Shown piece after piece: positions 4,500-42,346 of a stretch of DNA of 43,198 bases. The DNA is taken from positions 1 through 43,198 of the forward strand of contig JAGGVJ010000033.1 of assembly GCA_021158055.1 (NCBI GenBank), in the 5' to 3' direction. Within the stretch, counting starts at the first letter, position 1. Each line of letters begins with the position of its first letter. Origin of the DNA: Candidatus Iainarchaeum sp. (GTDB taxonomy: Archaea > Iainarchaeota > Iainarchaeia > JAGGVJ01). The notes beneath the pieces were generated by a model. The model did not search any database. It was given only the letters and a program-made list of their open reading frames with translations, and was not told where the DNA came from. A program made the position numbers and the translations under genes.

Positions 4500-7400
4500 C
4501 TATTTGTCTTTAGTTAAAGAATCTTTTTCAGGAAAATATTTTTTAGGGGTTTCAAATGAACCCAATGGCTTGTCAGACAAACCAGCATCATCTTTCTTTT
4601 TGGCAAAAAAACGGTTTTTTAAATCAAAAACCTTTTTCTTTGCAGCTCCAGCCCCTCTGTTTATCAAAGCAAGTCTGCCGGGTTTTTTTGGTTCAGGCCC
4701 TGCGCCTTTGAAAAACCCTTTTTGTTCGGCAGGGGTTTGAACTTCTTTCTTCAAGGCGCTCAAATTGGAAACTTCCTTGTTCTGGTGCTGAACATCTGTT
4801 TTGGTTTCAAAATCCGGCTTGAACCCGGTTTGTCCGGGGCTGTCTTTTGACTGAAACAGTTCCTGGCTTTCCCTTTTCACAAACTGATATGACTGATAGC
4901 CATCACCATGCGACTGCGGTTTTTGACTGCTTCCCCCCGTTGCAGGCATACCCTGGCCCTTGTTTGACGCTGTGTTTTTGACATCATTTGGAACAGCGCC
5001 TTGAGACGGTTTCGGCACAACGCTTTCAGACGGTTTCGGCACGGCGCTTTGAGCCTGCTCTGCGATGATATCACGGATAGCACCCGCACTTGGCACAGCA
5101 GGGCTCTTTGCAGAACTTTCTTCAATGTTCCTGACACTGTCTGCTGCAAGGCTTTGGCTTGATTTGACTGCAAAACTCCTGTCGGTTTCCGGCGGAACGG
5201 CTTTGGAAACCTCACGGAAATCTTTTTCAAAGCTGTCAAGTGAAATGCCTGTGCCGGAAGAATCCCTGCCTTTTCCTGCGGGCCTGTCAAACACATCCTT
5301 TTTTGACCTGTCAACAAACTTATCCATGGACTCCAGACCTTTTTCAGTTTCTTCCTTTATTTTCAACATGCGTTCCCTGGCTTTTTTTCTCCCGTAAAAA
5401 AAGAGCAGTTTGTCTTTTGCCTTGAAGCCAAGAACCACAAGAACAATCAAAGCGATCGCTGCAACAGCAGGCACAGCATAAGACATTGCCTGCGAGATGT
5501 CAATCAAAGGAACAGGCTCCTCGTCTTTGCCCTGGCTTGCCGTGACTGTTGACTCAACCAGATTGCTGCCTTCAAGCACAACTTTTATCTTGGAGCTGTT
5601 TCCAAACTCGTCACTTATCTGCAACTGGTTTGTCATTTTGAGAAGGTAGCTTTCAAGCTCAAACTCAAAATTATCCTCTTTTCCGACCGCCTCCAAAGTC
5701 ACGGTGTTTCCGTCCAGGTCAACCAGCTGGTTGCCGTACTTATCAAGAGGAATCAGCATTATTCTTTCAGGCGCATTTTCCTGATACCCGACTGCATCTT
5801 TTTCAATGAGAACAATCTTATTCCCTTCAAAATCCATGTCTGTTTTAAGCAAAATGCCTTCACCGTCATCTTTTGAAATCTCTTCAAACCTGTCAACCAA
5901 AGGAATATCCAGTTGAATCGTGTTTGCATTGAGTTTTTTGCCGTAGCCGTCAAACGCAGTTATCTCCAACGGCCACACAGTCATGTTTTTGTCAAACTCA
6001 AACCGCTTTGAAATGAAAAACCTGTTTGAATAATTTCTTTCCAAGGAATACTCTTTCTTTGAGGGTCCTGTCACAACCAGGTTTATCCCCTGGTCTTCAA
6101 ACTCGTCACCCCTTAACTCAACAAGCACATCCGCATAATCCCCTCTTTTCACTCCCTTAATAGAACTTGGCTCAAAAACAACTATTAAAAACTCCCCCAA
6201 CTCTTCCGCGTGCTTGAACTTGATTTCAGGCTGTTCTTCTTCAGGGTCTTCCTCTGCATCTTCAACACCGCCCGAAACAAGGTCTTCTTCCAAAAGTTCT
6301 CCGTCACCTTCTTCACCTGTTTCGCCGGAATCTTCCGGATCAGTGGGATCCACAGAACCGCTGCCTTCAGGCGTGTCTGTTCCAAAAAGCACCAGGGTCC
6401 TGACCGACTTGTTTTTGGCATTGTCAAACACAAACGAAGTGAGTTTCAGCAAAGACCCTTCTTTCAGTTCAAGGTCTGCAAGCTCGGTCGGAAGATTGTA
6501 AAAACAGGCGTCAGATTCGACTTTTGTAAAAACATCTGCCAAAATCTGCGAGTCAAACTCAAGCCTGAACCGGCACGAACTGACGCCGGAATCACTGTCC
6601 GAAACAACTGCTTTTATCTGGGCCGGAATTAACAGGTCCCGGCTTTCATTAAATATCCTTAAATCAAAATCCCCTGACTCTGTCAAAATCACATCAGGCG
6701 GTTTTGTGTCAAGAAAAATTGAATCGCACTTTTCACTGGTTTCCGTATCATCCTCGCTTCTGCATTTTCCGCAGACAGTTTTTTCTCCGTCGCTGTCCGG
6801 CAACACCCACGGATCACGAATACCTGAAGAAAGGAATAATTTTTCATAATTAATCCAGTCAGTGTAATCATCTCCACTGTTCCTGAAAGCGCAATCCACG
6901 GCACCGCGCGCACTTACCAGAAGATACACGTCGCGTGAATTGGTATGCTCCCTCCATTTACCGTTTATGTCAATGTTGAAATAAGTCGGGGAACCTGTAG
7001 AACCAATTGAAAAAGACTGCACTAACCTGTCAAGCTCGTCGCCTTCGTTATTCACGCAACTGATGGAAACTGACGGGTACTGCACTGAAAAAAACTTAAA
7101 AACTTCCTTGAATTCATAAACGCAGCCGTCTTCATCTTCGCTGCAGGTGCATTCCTCGTCATCACAATCACATCCGTCAACAGAATCACCGCAGTCCCGC
7201 TCCATTTCCAGATAGTCCTCTTTTGGCTTATTGTTTTCATACAACCTGCACTTTACCCCGTCACTGAAGTCTTTTATGCGCACAGTGCACGTTGTCATCG
7301 AATCATCATCAATGCTTGAGCAGTACTTGCTCACCAAAGACAAAACCTGCGGGTACTCCATGGTGTCTTTGGAAATCTTTGTTTTCGCGCCGTCTCCCGT

Positions 7401-22706: not shown

Positions 22707-23813
22707 ATGAAAATGAAATACAAAAACATCCTGGTGCTCTGTATTGACAGGGACAACGACCTCGAAAGAAAAGCGGGAATAAAAGGCCCAATCACAGGCA
22801 GGAAACAAAACATCAACGCGGCTGCAAAACTTGCTCTGGCAGACCCTGAAGACAGCGACGTAAACTCAATTTTTGCCGCAGTACAGGCATACGACAAACT
22901 CAAAGAACACGCGGAAAAAATAGAAGTCGCAACCCTTACAGGACACAGGATAGTAGGTTTTGAAGCAGACATGAACATTAACGAACAACTGGATCAAGTA
23001 CTTGAAAAATTCAAAGCCAACGGCGTTTACTTTGTCACAGACGGTGCGGAAGACGACGAAATAATCCCCATTGTCCAGTCAAAAGTTCCGATAATCTCAA
23101 AAAAAACAGTGGTTGTAAAACAGGAAAAAGACATTGAAAAAACATACTACAAAATAAAAGAAGCGCTCTCAGATCCACAAATATCGCTGCTGCTTTTCGG
23201 ACTGCCCGGCCTGGCGTTTATCCTCTGGGCACTCATACCCGCGTTCAACCTCAACACAATCCTTGGAGCAGTCGGCTTTTACCTTTTGGTATTCAAGGGG
23301 CTCGGGGTCGAAAACACGATACTGAAAAACGTCCGGAAACTCAAAAAAAGCACTTTAATTGACAGGGTAAGCTTCCCGATGTACATCGGAATGGTGCTAT
23401 TGCTTGTGTTTGCAGGAATATCAATGTTTGATTCTTTCAAAACCCTGCCGCTTGGCATGGAACTGCATCAAATGATAATCAGCGTGCTGTCAGCGGGGTA
23501 CACATTGATTGGAACAGCAGCGATCATATTCTCGCTTGGAAGGATGATTGACGCGCACTACTCAAAAACAGTTTTCAAATTCAGAAAATACATCATTTCA
23601 ATCCTTTCAATCATCAGCCTCTGGCTAATACTCGACGCATTCACGGGAATAGTCATGGGGGATGGAGACGCCACCTGGTTTATAATAACAATCCTTGCAA
23701 GCGTCATAATCCTTTCGGCAGGAATAAAAACAACCACCATCTTCACAAAAAAATCAAAAAACACAACCCTAAACCAAAAAACAAAACGAATCGCGGCAAA
23801 AGCGGCCAGATAA
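22707..23813 (+). CDS. DUF373 family membrane protein
   Basis: This archaeal integral-membrane family has no assigned function. The protein is 368 residues long. The soluble N-terminal half starts ILVLCIDRDNDLERKAGI and has GPITGRKQNINAAAKLALADPEDSD, VATLTGHRIVG and VYFVTDGAEDDEI, all family marks. The C-terminal half has about six hydrophobic segments from FGLPGLAFILWALIPAF onward and a Lys/Arg end. ATG 22707 is preceded by a weak GTGA. It is transcribed away from the stomatin gene. Confidence 0.9.
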   Translation: MKMKYKNILVLCIDRDNDLERKAGIKGPITGRKQNINAAAKLALADPEDSDVNSIFAAVQAYDKLKEHAEKIEVATLTGHRIVGFEADMNINEQLDQVLEKFKANGVYFVTDGAEDDEIIPIVQSKVPIISKKTVVVKQEKDIEKTYYKIKEALSDPQISLLLFGLPGLAFILWALIPAFNLNTILGAVGFYLLVFKGLGVENTILKNVRKLKKSTLIDRVSFPMYIGMVLLLVFAGISMFDSFKTLPLGMELHQMIISVLSAGYTLIGTAAIIFSLGRMIDAHYSKTVFKFRKYIISILSIISLWLILDAFTGIVMGDGDATWFIITILASVIILSAGIKTTTIFTKKSKNTTLNQKTKRIAAKAAR

Positions 23814-24637: not shown

Positions 24638-26029
24638 TTAAATCTTTAAAGGAACTTCTTCAAGTGCTTTTTCAAGCTTTTTTATCAGTGACTTCTTTGA
24701 TTTGCTGTCAGACAACACCGCTTCAAGCACTTCCAAAATGGTTTCCGCAGGCACTATCCTGATTTGCTTTTTTTGCCTGTCGTCAAGGACAACGTCCCCG
24801 AGATTGGATTTAGGTATCACGACCGTTTTTATCCCGGCTCCAAGAGCAGCCAATATCTTCATCGTGACCCCGCCGACAGGAAGCACGTCGCCCCTCACCG
24901 AAAGAGAACCGGTCATCGCAATCGATTGATTTACCGGAACACCAGTCATCGCGGAAAGAAGAGCAGTGGCAACTGACACGCTTGCAGAATCACCTTCAAC
25001 ACCCTCGTAGGTCTGGAGGAACTGCACGTGAATATCAAACTGGGAAATATCCTTGCCGGAAACAAGCTTCAAAAGAGCACTGACGTTTTGAACCGCCTCG
25101 TTCGCAATATCCCCGAGCTTTCCCGTGGCAATAACTTTTCCCTCGCGCTGGCTTTGAGCCGGGGCCACTTCAGACACAATCGGAAGCACTATCCCCCCGC
25201 CTTCCCTACCAATCACTGCCAAGCCGTTGACGCGGCCGACTTCCATGCCCTTAATCTTGAACACCTCATAATCTTTCTTGACGCTGATATACTTATCCGA
25301 AACCTGTTGTTCAAGCGTCTTTGCAAGCTTCATGGCTTCCTTGACGTGTCTGACATGCACAAGTTTCTTTGACTTATCCTCTTTCGCCAAGTCCCCCGCG
25401 GCCCTCACAAGACCTCCCAGGTCACGCAGCTTTAAAGTAAGCTTTCCTTTTCTTCCTGCGCGAATTCTTGCAACCCTCACAACCTCGTCAACGGCGCTCT
25501 TGCTGAAGTGAGGTATTTTCCCGTCCTTTTTGACTTCCTGCGCAATAAACTGCGCAATAAAAAACCTGTTTTCGGGAGTGTCTGCAAGGTCATTGTTCAT
25601 GAAAATCTCGTAACCGTAACCGCGGATTCTCGAGCGAAGAGCAGGGTGCATGCTTTTCAGGTCTTCCATGTTTCCAGCCGCAACCAAAACAAAATCACAT
25701 GGAACCGCTTCGGTGCGAACCATTGCCCCGCTTGACATCTCGCTTTGACCTGTAATGGAATATTTTTTCTCCTGCAGCGCAGTCAAAAGCTCCTGCTGGG
25801 CCTTTGGAGACAAAGCAGCCATCTCGTCAATAAACAACACTCCCTTGTTTGACTTGTGAATCATTCCCGGCTCAACCCTTGCGTGAGCAGGAGTTCCAAG
25901 TCCGCCTGAATTTGAAACTGCCACTTCCCGGGAAAAAAGGTTTCCTGTTGAAGTCGTGGCATTGTACACAAAACCGTTTTTTACTTCTTTGACTTTCTTT
26001 CCAGTGATCTCTGACTCAACCGGTTTCAT
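24638..26029 (-). CDS. lonB: LonB C-terminal half with N-terminal C-intein
   Basis: 463 residues. The first 40 read as a C-intein: block F-like [14 protein letters not shown] and an end VAVSN before Ser41, which starts the extein [15 protein letters not shown]. Then come Walker B (VLFIDE, 64-69), the rest of the AAA+ module ([11 protein letters not shown]), and the Lon protease domain with the catalytic pair Ser348 (GVEGDSAS) and Lys391 (GGVTMK), 43 residues apart as in archaeal LonB. It has no Walker A and no membrane segment, so alone it cannot be a working ATP-dependent protease. ATG 26029 overlaps the upstream stop (ATGA) and has GGTGG four bases away, the same layout as tldE. Alternative: one frame with the upstream gene, broken by an indel in G6. 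Confidence 0.93.
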
Positions 26030-26559
26030 ATGCCACCGCCCCCCGCCTTCAAAACAGCATCGTTTGCCTGATTTGATTTTCCCTGAGATAAAAACAATGC
26101 CCTTAACCTTTCAAGCTGTTCTTCAAACAAACCCGCAAACCCGGCAGGCGCAGAAAACACCTTTGTCCCGACCACAGCATCTTTTGCCAAAACGCGTCCC
26201 TGCGGAGTCAAAATTTCGTGCTCGCAAGTGACTGAAACGGTTTTTCCTGAATCTGTCTTCAGGCAGACTATCTCCCCGGAAAAAGGCCGCCTGTTAATCA
26301 CTTCCACTCTTGCAAGCTCCATTTCCCCTGAACCACTCAATCCGACAGTGTATATTTTTTCATCTTCCGGGCCCGAAGGCAACACAATTGCCTCGTAGCC
26401 ATCAGGGTTTTTTTCAATCAAACCTGAGTATTTTTTTGAGAGCATCTCCCAGGCTTCTTCAAAAGAAACTTCCACAAGCGCGTTTTCAAAATTCGTTGAA
26501 ATGCCTGCAAAATTTTCTTTTCCAAGGCTCATATAAAAAGTGTTTTCCCCTGAAAAACT
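25910..26559 (-). other. Mini-intein in LonB, apparently naturally split
   Basis: N-intein codons 26559-26029 (177 residues, starting Ser) and C-intein codons 26029-25910 (40 residues, ending Asn) lie in adjacent overlapping genes. The exact insertion point is between FQ and SGGLG of the conserved LonB motif, a known intein position in archaeal Lon. Splicing blocks A, B, F and G can all be placed, and the endonuclease domain is absent. The first residue is Ser, not the commoner Cys; the block F His and the penultimate His of block G are replaced by Gly and Ser. Extein continuity across the junction is the strongest evidence that this is an intein rather than an unrelated insertion. Confidence 0.85.
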
Positions 26560-27195
26560 CTGGAACGGGTCGTGGCGGACGTCCCCGAGAAGCGCTCCTG
26601 ACTTGGCGCCGGTCGCTTCAATGAACGGGGCAGTTTTCTGGGTTGCATTGTCAACAAGCAGTTTTGGCGCACCGCCTTCTCCCGCTGCACCCCCCCGCAT
26701 ACTCATGCCCATTACAGTAACTGCTGAAAAAAGCGCGCCGACTATCAAAAACGCGGCGGCGATTATCTCTGTTATCCAGCCGAAACTAAGAGCAATCATC
26801 GGCAACATGATTGCGGCAATCAATATCACAAAACCCAAAAGGCGCTGGTTGCTCATCGCTGACGCCGCAGTAAGTCGTTCTTTTTCAACAATCTTCTTAC
26901 CTTCCCCTGCCTTGACTGTCCTTACCTTTGGGTTGTTGTCAAACTCCGGGTTCGGGTAACACAACACATCCTGAAGTTCGCTCAAAGGCATGAGTTCTGC
27001 CATGGCCTGGGCGATCATGGATTTTCCGGTTCCCGGCTCTCCGATAAGCAAAACGTTTCTTCGCTGCGCTGCAGCTTTTTCAATAATATAAGATGCCTCT
27101 GTCTGGCCTATGACCTGGCCAATCAACTTTTTCGGAATCGAAATGTCTTTTGTGGACCTGAACTTTTTGCTGTATTTTTCAACCATAAAACTCAC
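26026..27195 (-). CDS. lonB: LonB N-terminal half with C-terminal N-intein
   Basis: 389 residues. Walker A is GEPGTGKS (52-59). Two membrane helices follow at about 119-162, typical of membrane-anchored archaeal LonB, then [13 protein letters not shown] up to residue 212. In intact LonB the next residues are SGGLGTPAH. Here Ser213 starts an intein: block [10 protein letters not shown], block B-like [17 protein letters not shown] (Thr323, His326) preceded by [13 protein letters not shown], then a helical stretch ending AGGGGI and a stop. No homing endonuclease is present. GTG 27195 follows AGGAG; ATG 27186 is possible. The downstream gene holds the C-intein and the rest of LonB. Splicing in trans would join Gln212 to Ser41 of that protein. 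Confidence 0.93.
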
Positions 27196-39554: not shown

Positions 39555-41003
39555 ATGGAATCAAACACAGCAAACATACCAAACACAACAGACCTATCAG
39601 CTCAAATACACGACCTGGTTCAAAAAACCGCGCAATACGCCCAAACCGGCCCGCAAATCACATACTGCGACGTGCGGGGCGTGATCGGAGAAAGCAACAC
39701 ACTTTCAATGAGCGACAGCGAAGGAAAAACCGATTCCACAAACGGAATCGGAATAGGGATTCGCGTGCTTGCAGACGGAGCGTGGGGATACACTTCTTCA
39801 ACGCAACTTGATGCGGCAAAACTCAAGGGGAAAGTAGACCAGGCACTCAAAATCGCGCTTGGATTATCACATGCGAAAAAAGACAAGGCGACTGTCCGGG
39901 AACTTGACCCGGTGATCAGAAGCCACAAAACAAAATACAAAATCAATCCCCTTGAAGTTGACATGAAAGAAAAACACGAAATACTGACTCACATGTTTGA
40001 CTGCTGCGAACACGAGGAAATAATCCACAATCAGGCGAGGATCAGCGCGGGACAAACAAGCAAATGGTTTGCAAACACAGAAGGAAGCCTCATTGAAACC
40101 CAGGCTACAAAAACCATAATCTCGCTTTCAGCAGTGTCGCACAGGGACGGGAAAACATCAATGAACTACGACGTCAAAGCCGGAATCGCCGGATTCGAAT
40201 TCATAAAAAACCTTGACATCGAAAAATTCGCAAAAGGAATATATACAAAAGCAGTGGATTTCCTCGACGCAAAACCGTTCAAAGGCGGTGCAATGGACGT
40301 TGTCCTGTCCCCCTCGGTCGGAGGCACCCTTGTCCACGAAGTATTCGGCCACGCAGCAGAAGCCGACTGGGTAACAAACGGAAGGTCCCTTCTCAAAGAC
40401 AAACTCAACACACCCATCGGAAGCGAAATGGTCACAATCTGCGACGACGGCTCAATGAGCAACTCATGGGGGAGCATTTACTTTGACGACGAAGGAATCC
40501 AAAACAAAAACCAGGTACTGGTTGAAAACGGAATGCTAAAAGGATACATGCACTCGCGCGAAACAGCCTGCAAAATGGGTGTCCCTGAAACCGGAAACGG
40601 GCGGGCGCAAGACTACAACCACAGAGTGATACCTCGGATGACAAACACATACCTCAAAAAAGGGGACTTTGAAGTTGATGAAATGATTGAAGGGATAAAA
40701 AACGGCATAATCGTCGACAAATACACCTGCGCCCTTGAAGACCCTGCGGGAGGAAGCTTTGAGCTCAAGACTCTCGGGGGATATGTCATAAAAAACGGAA
40801 AAACGGAAACGCCGATTGCAAGAACAACCCTTTCAAGCCCTTCATTCATAGACACATTCAACAATATTGACGCGCTCTCAAAAAACATGAGCAAAGACAA
40901 CATCGGGATGTGCGGGAAAGGACACGAGGACTGGGTGCCTGTCGGAAACCCGTCGCCGTTCATAAGGATACGGAACCTCATAGTCAACGGGGGTGATTCA
41001 TGA
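39555..41003 (+). CDS. tldD: TldD metalloprotease subunit
   Basis: 482 residues. It is the zinc-bearing partner of the TldD/TldE heterodimeric protease that degrades unfolded or modified peptides. The active motif HEVFGH is at residues 261-266 (HExxxH), within GGTLVHEVFGHAAEADW. Other family marks are GIGIRVLADGAWGYTSS near the N-terminus and the late GGSFELKTLGGYVIKNG and NGRAQDYNHRVIPRMTNTY. Its stop overlaps the tldE start, so the two are translationally coupled. No RiPP precursor or gyrase-toxin target is visible nearby, so a general peptide-turnover role is inferred. Confidence 0.96.
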   Translation: MESNTANIPNTTDLSAQIHDLVQKTAQYAQTGPQITYCDVRGVIGESNTLSMSDSEGKTDSTNGIGIGIRVLADGAWGYTSSTQLDAAKLKGKVDQALKIALGLSHAKKDKATVRELDPVIRSHKTKYKINPLEVDMKEKHEILTHMFDCCEHEEIIHNQARISAGQTSKWFANTEGSLIETQATKTIISLSAVSHRDGKTSMNYDVKAGIAGFEFIKNLDIEKFAKGIYTKAVDFLDAKPFKGGAMDVVLSPSVGGTLVHEVFGHAAEADWVTNGRSLLKDKLNTPIGSEMVTICDDGSMSNSWGSIYFDDEGIQNKNQVLVENGMLKGYMHSRETACKMGVPETGNGRAQDYNHRVIPRMTNTYLKKGDFEVDEMIEGIKNGIIVDKYTCALEDPAGGSFELKTLGGYVIKNGKTETPIARTTLSSPSFIDTFNNIDALSKNMSKDNIGMCGKGHEDWVPVGNPSPFIRIRNLIVNGGDS

Positions 41004-42346
41004 TGTTTGAAGAAATACTCAAAAGCGGGAACTGCGAAGTGTACTCAAGCAACGTCAGGGTTGCCGACGCAAACCTTGACAACGACGTCAACGCGTTAAG
41101 GTCAACAAACGAAAGCGGGTACTCAATCCGCGTTCTTGAAAACCTCAAAATAGGCAATGCATCTTCAAACGATTTTTCTGTTCAAAGCATCCGAAACACC
41201 CTTGAAACCGCAAAAAAACTAAGCGGTTTCGGAAAAGAAATCCCAAAAAACTTTTCATTTTGCGACACCGGCAAAAAATCAGACGCAAAACAAAACTTTG
41301 ACAACCTACTCTCAACACAACTCGACGAATGCTGCAGCAAGCTCGCGGAAATCACCCTGCAGAAAGCAAGCGATCAAAACGTGAAAATCACGAACTGTTC
41401 CATCAAAACAATTCAAGTGGACTTTCGCGTGCAAAACAGCCTTGGAATCGACAAGCAGGAAAAAGGAACCTTCGTGGTTGCGGCAATCGACTCAAAAGCA
41501 AACACAAACAAACCCTTGGCAGAACTTTCATCAACGTTTTCCTCAAGAATTCTTGACGAAAAAGAATACGAAAAATGGGTTTCTGAAAGGTTTGAGCTCA
41601 CAAAACTGTTTGTTGAGCCGAAAAAAATTGAATCCGGAAAATACCCGCTTTTGATTGAACCTGGAGTGTTCTCGCCGCTTATCGCAGACACTGTCGGGTA
41701 CTGGGCAAGCGGAAAATCACGCGTTGACAAAATAAGCTTTTTTGAAGGCAAAAAAAACCAGCAGGTATTCTCGGAAAAACTGTCAATCACAGACGACGCA
41801 CTGTTTGAGAACGCCCCTTCCACAAGCTCGATTGACATGGAAGGAAACCCCACGAGGCAAACTGAAATCATAAAAAACGGAACTTTCAATTCTTTTTTCT
41901 ATGACCAGCTTTACGCAAGCTACTTTGACGAACAGGCAACAGGAAACGCAAAAAAGCAATCCGGAATGGGCGGGGAAAAAATTTATTCAAGCTCCACATT
42001 TTGCGGCTCAAACAACCTCGTGGTTGAACGCGGAAGTCACTCAATTGAAGAACTAAAGCAGGACTTTGAAGGAATAATCATTGAAGGCGCGGGTCTTCCG
42101 ATGGCTGACAGCGAAACAGGAGAATTCGGGTTTGAAATCCGAAACGGCCTGCTTTCAAAAAACAAAGAACTTACCCCCGTGCGCTACGGGATATTTGCAG
42201 GAAACGTCAAGGCAATACTCAACCAAATCAGCGCGTTTTCAAAAGAAAGAGACACCGTTCCAGACGAACGCACGGCTGAATTCAACAGTTCCTGCGTGTG
42301 CCCGTGGGCAAAACTTGAAAACCAGACAATTGTCGGCGGGAAATAA
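41000..42346 (+). CDS. tldE: TldE/PmbA protease subunit
   Basis: 448 residues. It is the non-metal partner of TldD. It lacks an HExxxH and has the family's GYSIRVLENLKIGNASSND, LIEPGVFSPLIADTVGYW, TSSIDMEGNPTRQTEIIKNG, and a long C-terminal beta region ending near CVCPWAKLENQTIVGG. ATG 41000 (ATGATG, so 41003 is possible) overlaps the tldD stop and has GGTGATTC upstream. Its end is 12 bases from the convergent unknown gene. The pair is intact, unlike many genes just upstream. Confidence 0.95.
   Translation: MMFEEILKSGNCEVYSSNVRVADANLDNDVNALRSTNESGYSIRVLENLKIGNASSNDFSVQSIRNTLETAKKLSGFGKEIPKNFSFCDTGKKSDAKQNFDNLLSTQLDECCSKLAEITLQKASDQNVKITNCSIKTIQVDFRVQNSLGIDKQEKGTFVVAAIDSKANTNKPLAELSSTFSSRILDEKEYEKWVSERFELTKLFVEPKKIESGKYPLLIEPGVFSPLIADTVGYWASGKSRVDKISFFEGKKNQQVFSEKLSITDDALFENAPSTSSIDMEGNPTRQTEIIKNGTFNSFFYDQLYASYFDEQATGNAKKQSGMGGEKIYSSSTFCGSNNLVVERGSHSIEELKQDFEGIIIEGAGLPMADSETGEFGFEIRNGLLSKNKELTPVRYGIFAGNVKAILNQISAFSKERDTVPDERTAEFNSSCVCPWAKLENQTIVGGK

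Follow-up and report, generated by a model that had tools for sequence, protein, structure and literature searches.

Natural split inteins are few, and their origin from contiguous inteins has been argued from scattered cases. In the DPANN archaeon Nanoarchaeum equitans, a natural split intein is needed to assemble a housekeeping enzyme, DNA polymerase, from halves that are encoded far apart. The cyanobacterial DnaE split inteins are free of a homing endonuclease (HEN), are split between blocks B and F, have a short IntC of ~36-40 aa and are encoded by genes that are not adjacent. In viral and metagenomic fractured genes of the Dassa type, the break reportedly lies inside an intein, with a free endonuclease gene of a Vsr-like family between the halves. 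Split inteins and fractured genes as such are established, according to the passages of PMC4031507, PMC6801210 and PMC7090010 that cite the original work (Wu 1998; Dassa et al., 2009, NAR 37:2560), and contiguous Lon inteins are represented by that of Pyrococcus abyssi (O'Brien et al., 2010, as listed in PMC4031507).

The window analyzed here, a 43,198-nt contig of Candidatus Iainarchaeum sp. (JAGGVJ010000033.1), carries lonB on its minus strand as two ORFs. We read this locus, with a probability of roughly 0.8, as a fractured lonB that carries a natural split intein; its trans-splicing would yield a 632-residue LonB, and the locus would represent an endonuclease-free end stage. Like that of the N. 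equitans polymerase, this would be a natural split intein of a DPANN genome, but the host gene differs and the lonB halves overlap by 4 bases. Like the DnaE inteins, it is split between blocks B and F, is HEN-free and has a short IntC (40 aa); unlike them, it sits in an unrelated host gene whose two parts are adjacent. The Dassa-type order of IntN half, free-standing endonuclease gene and IntC half recurs in relatives of the window genome; here, however, the host is a chromosomal lonB of DPANN archaea, the free enzyme belongs to the intein's own LAGLIDADG lineage, and the window has no endonuclease. The contiguous Lon inteins at loci L007 and L063 share the insertion site (DP[FL]Q^SGGLGTPAH) and have homologous splicing and endonuclease domains, but each is a single cis-splicing ORF with the endonuclease inside, whereas the window intein is split and endonuclease-free. 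A search of the open literature turned up neither a split Lon intein nor a DPANN lonB series of this kind. Since this single lonB site shows contiguous, split with free endonuclease, dispersed and endonuclease-free states in related genomes, the path between them becomes traceable and testable. It also suggests that many DPANN archaea obtain a membrane protease only through protein trans-splicing, and it supplies candidate protein-ligation tools: new split inteins whose N-terminal nucleophile is Ser or Cys and whose +1 residue is Ser.

The lonB locus of the window

The N-half ORF (27186-26026, minus strand) encodes 386 aa from an ATG at 27186; a GTG lies three codons upstream, at 27195. Its first 209 aa, the N-extein (26560-27186), contain Walker A (GEPGTGKS) and a hydrophobic segment with two membrane helices of predicted type, and end in GDVRHDPFQ. 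This is the first third of archaeal LonB; the next 177 residues, which differ in kind, form the IntN (26029-26559), with Ser1, block B (TCEH) and a 45-aa extra tail that ends in AGGGGI before the TGA stop at 26026-26028. The C-half ORF (26029-24638, minus strand; 463 aa) starts with its own ATG and encodes a 40-aa IntC (25910-26029), which aligns with the IntC of 20 relatives and ends in REVAVSN, with Asn as the C-terminal residue. The 423-aa C-extein (24641-25909) opens with the +1 Ser (SGGLGTPAH) and carries Walker B (VLFIDE), the sensor (AAGN), the Arg finger (RSRIRGYG) and the protease Ser (GDSAS) and Lys (GGVTMKIL). The LonB model TIGR00764 matches the N-half over model positions 3-200 (E 2.8e-59) and the C-half over 174-607 (E 2.2e-197), the latter match beginning within the C-intein; jointly the halves span positions 3-607 of 608, with all LonB motifs intact across the two ORFs, as befits an archaeal LonB. 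The C-half is also matched by PF05362 (Lon_C; E 7.6e-32) and by the lid family PF20436.

ORF inspection, translation and profile matches bear out the anatomy given in the earlier, sequence-only reading: an upstream ORF that ends after Walker A, the membrane helices and an N-intein; a downstream ORF with its own ATG, a 40-residue C-intein, Walker B and a Ser-Lys protease domain; and, by motif position, Walker A and Walker B on different polypeptides. Removal of the intein rejoins the conserved LonB motif exactly, as that reading had claimed: the 16-residue junction, and the 13-residue form of it, run uninterrupted in intein-less LonBs. The ligated product had been put at approximately 635 residues; joining the exteins does give a LonB of about that size, with a computed length of 632. 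Elsewhere in the window genome there is a second LonB-like AAA+ ORF with neither protease domain nor intein and a GDVRHDPYGGG junction (G000:C37; L004 1447-2880), as well as a 228-aa protein in which a hydrophobic segment at the N-terminus accompanies a Lon_C-type protease domain (G000:C42; L002 1495-2181).

The two ORFs meet in an ATGA overlap (26026-26029, minus strand), in which the IntN-ORF stop (TGA, 26028-26026) is interleaved with the IntC-ORF start (ATG, 26029-26027). A Shine-Dalgarno-like GGTGG (26033-26037, minus strand) precedes this start with the spacing GGTG-N4-ATG; the same spacing occurs before the ORF at 41000-42346, called tldE in the sequence-only reading, in agreement with the likeness noted there, and that ORF likewise overlaps the preceding one by 4 bases. 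Codon usage speaks for the upstream frame as far as the TGA and for the downstream frame from the ATG onward. The border is read from one assembly, and all genomes with which it is compared belong to other orders than the window genome.

Intein features of the insert

Taken singly, the window IntN is a borderline profile match: the model of the intein N-terminal region, TIGR01445, finds it with E 1e-3 in the protein search and 1.5e-4 in the genome search, the score of 22.9 bits falling slightly under the curated cut-off of 24.5. The same genome search detects no other intein N-region in the window genome. When the halves are joined, TIGR01445 matches all 14 of the joined inteins and PF14890 matches 13, the window being the sole miss. 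A profile built from these 14, the window included, finds solved inteins: Mja KlbA (9.9e-16), NrdJ-1 (1.1e-9) and Pho RadA (7e-7). The profiles thus argue clearly for a Hint-fold intein at the level of the family, with the window alone below the TIGR01445 curated cut-off.

The residues point the same way. The window has a complete splicing set (Ser1, the Thr-x-x-His of block B, the terminal Asn and Ser+1), and every split intein read keeps Ser/Cys1, the Thr and His of block B and the terminal Asn, with identities to the window intein of 24-41%. According to PMC4031507, these are catalytic or assisting intein residues. In the window, Ser takes the place of His at the penultimate position, as it does in the split intein of G007 and the contiguous one of L063, and Cys does so in split G003; to judge from the reference list of PMC4031507, this assisting His is absent in some inteins. 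In the alignment with 18 split relatives, the 45-aa tail of the window IntN is unlike theirs. An AlphaFold2 (AF2) model of IntN alone has a low pLDDT (55), as is to be expected of half a domain, and still finds inteins as its top structural matches; we give it little weight. With the host gene in two ORFs and the break between blocks B and F, the locus has the architecture of a split intein, and the case that the insert is an intein is firm when it is taken together with its relatives.

How would a complete protease arise from such a gene? ORF 1 and ORF 2 would be translated separately, as a coupled pair, and IntN and IntC would associate into a single Hint splicing domain. Trans-splicing would then proceed through the Ser1 nucleophile, assisted by block-B Thr and His, cyclization of the C-terminal Asn and the Ser+1 acceptor, and ligation would unite in one chain the membrane-anchored part with Walker A and the part with Walker B and the protease. 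An unligated protease half would be left with no membrane segment; and since Walker A and Walker B are on separate chains, association of the halves must at least precede any ligation.

The same split in related genomes

To sample relatives, we searched 92 genomes of the class (49 genera), scanned GTDB genomes and retrieved flanks. At the same site, 17 of the 92 by our count, the window genome G000 included, have the same intein split between two ORFs (the others being G003, G007, G009, G025, G027, G028, G038, G039, G043, G045, G048, G054, G055, G056, G079 and G091), as do four genomes beyond these, G092-G095 (loci L012, L006, L022 and L052). Where it can be identified, the Met of the relatives' IntC ORFs lies 35-67, mostly 37-48, residues ahead of the junction; the window value of 40 falls among these. 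The comparison suggested by the sequence-only reading hence backs a natural split intein in lonB: the two-gene arrangement recurs in ~20 other genomes, mostly without overlap and often with an endonuclease gene between the halves. The uninterrupted intein frames which that reading had set as counterevidence do exist, in G041, G017 and G042 within the class and L007 and L063 outside it, but those within the class represent a different allele. By its ORF structure, the lonB split is a recurrent and widespread fractured-gene arrangement, not a one-off.

The distance between the halves varies. In ten collinear loci, 287-4331 bases separate the IntN stop from the IntC start; at L116, an opposite-strand ATPase gene intervenes; and G003 (L126/L143) is, next to the window, a second case of a split lonB with no endonuclease between the halves, here in a 287-base gap, and has an additional contiguous intein ~13 residues past the split site. 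In G092 (L135, L012), the N-half sits 17.8 kb into a 41-kb contig and the C-half is on a 28-kb contig, ~5 kb from one end with its 5' side toward the interior, each surrounded by several kb of unrelated genes; these halves cannot be neighbors and are dispersed, tens of kb apart. Dispersal was also considered for G043, G055, G079 and G093, where the halves are on separate contigs but near contig ends; proof is confined to G092.

Fragmentation can go further. In G009, a genome that is 99% complete, LonB is spread over three ORFs with three inteins (L131 1-6292): a contiguous one in the P-loop, a split one at the window's site and a second split one further on, in which the IntN piece retains its endonuclease and, as in the window, shares an ATGA overlap (5075-5078) with the IntC ORF. 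LonB of G009 would accordingly be built from three polypeptides; the second split also occurs in G079 and G007.

In most of the ten collinear loci, a third ORF of ~320-390 codons stands between the halves. It is intact in L114, L118, L120, L123, L052 and L134 and broken in L117 and L122, and in L123 the IntN-half, middle ORF and IntC-half overlap end to end. Sequence searches of Pfam and the PDB return no match for it. Its AlphaFold2 model (pLDDT 88, pTM 0.87) has as best Foldseek neighbors I-Tsp061I (1.8e-7), E-DreI, PI-SceI and other LAGLIDADG homing endonucleases, so the middle ORF is predicted to have a LAGLIDADG fold. A profile of the free ORFs matches the contiguous LonB inteins L063 (Micrarchaeota; 1.3e-85) and L007 (Thermococcus; 6.6e-57) in their insert between blocks B and F, and also the insert at the second LonB site in G009 and G079; with the other contiguous allele at the site (L008/G041, L041, L045 and L125), it gives no match. 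By these matches, the free endonuclease represents the domain of the intein itself, now encoded as a separate gene. The Dassa-type free gene between the halves is thus found in relatives and is lacking in the window; a search of the window and the rest of its genome, run with no positive control, found no copy, and neither did a search of viral contigs for the endonuclease.

Competing explanations and evolutionary history

The intein tree nests the window amid 17 split inteins (support 90/89) and leaves L063 and L007 outside this group. Forcing it just outside the split group is not rejected by the AU test (p 0.12), and forcing it together with L063 is weakly rejected (p 0.025); its placement inside the split clade is suggestive only. 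This tree result, the single assembly, the penultimate Ser and the odd 45-aa tail all count against the split-intein reading, as does a slippery-type heptamer, G GGG GGC (26038-26044, minus strand), which lies shortly before the IntN-ORF stop and fits the -1 pattern X XXY YYZ in the IntN frame (GC[G GGG GGC]). Might the border then be an artifact? The frames of the two ORFs are one step apart and meet at the G6 run (26044-26039), so that an assembly or sequencing indel, most likely at 26039-26044, would hide a single ORF containing a cis-splicing contiguous mini-intein. Contiguous inteins do occur at this site in other archaea, and a window outside the split clade would suit this explanation too. 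We nevertheless consider it improbable. The question of sequencing error is largely settled because relatives, ~20 other genomes, carry the same split; moreover, the ATG with its GGTG element stands at exactly the relatives' IntC length, and the other G6/G7 runs within the two ORFs, at 26696 and 25198, leave the frame open.

The same heptamer could instead act in the cell, with programmed -1 frameshifting or transcriptional slippage producing a fused, cis-splicing precursor beside a short IntN product, and the -1 frame does lead directly into IntC. Yet G6 runs are common (12 sites in the window), the 12-residue fused -1 stretch is not protein-like by codon usage, and the other splits, with distances of up to 4.3 kb between the halves or with halves on other contigs, could not be bridged by any heptamer; such recoding seems very unlikely. 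Finally, LonB might work unspliced, as two tightly associated subunits with the intein halves as inert relics, given that Walker A and Walker B are on separate chains in many genomes. The catalytic splicing residues, however, are kept in all split inteins read despite their divergence, and the G009 protease would need three chains; we regard this as the least probable of these explanations.

On the preferred reading of a split, trans-splicing intein, how did the locus come about? The split is probably ancestral to the intein lineage, a contiguous LAGLIDADG intein having given rise to an IntN-half, a free endonuclease and an IntC-half; in the window, the endonuclease would since have been lost, leaving halves that now overlap by 4 bases. 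The window is then probably the endonuclease-free end stage of a fractured-gene lineage. The LonB extein tree (112 rows) requires 22 changes among the states split, contiguous and none, and G045 and G048 are extein neighbors whose inteins are firmly separated (p 0.0007). The state changes and this discordance point to gain and loss by homing, though differential loss of old intein lineages could also account for them. At about even odds, we would extend the model to a whole lineage of split inteins in the lonB of DPANN archaea: fractured and still mobile, they may spread and be lost as a three-ORF unit (IntN-half, LAGLIDADG gene, IntC-half), having passed through all stages from contiguous through dispersed to endonuclease-free, in cells that would rely on protein trans-splicing to put together a membrane AAA+ protease, in one species out of three separate ORFs.

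Split lonB of the Iainarchaeia type is also present in records titled Chloroflexi, Falkowbacteria and Woesearchaeota (L010, L013 and L022), which are likely mislabeled or mixed bins; the L022 genome has an intact lonB in addition to the split one. A gene for a DUF373-like membrane protein adjoins the lonB C-half both in the window (22707-23813) and in L022 (4172-5401), a conserved neighborhood.
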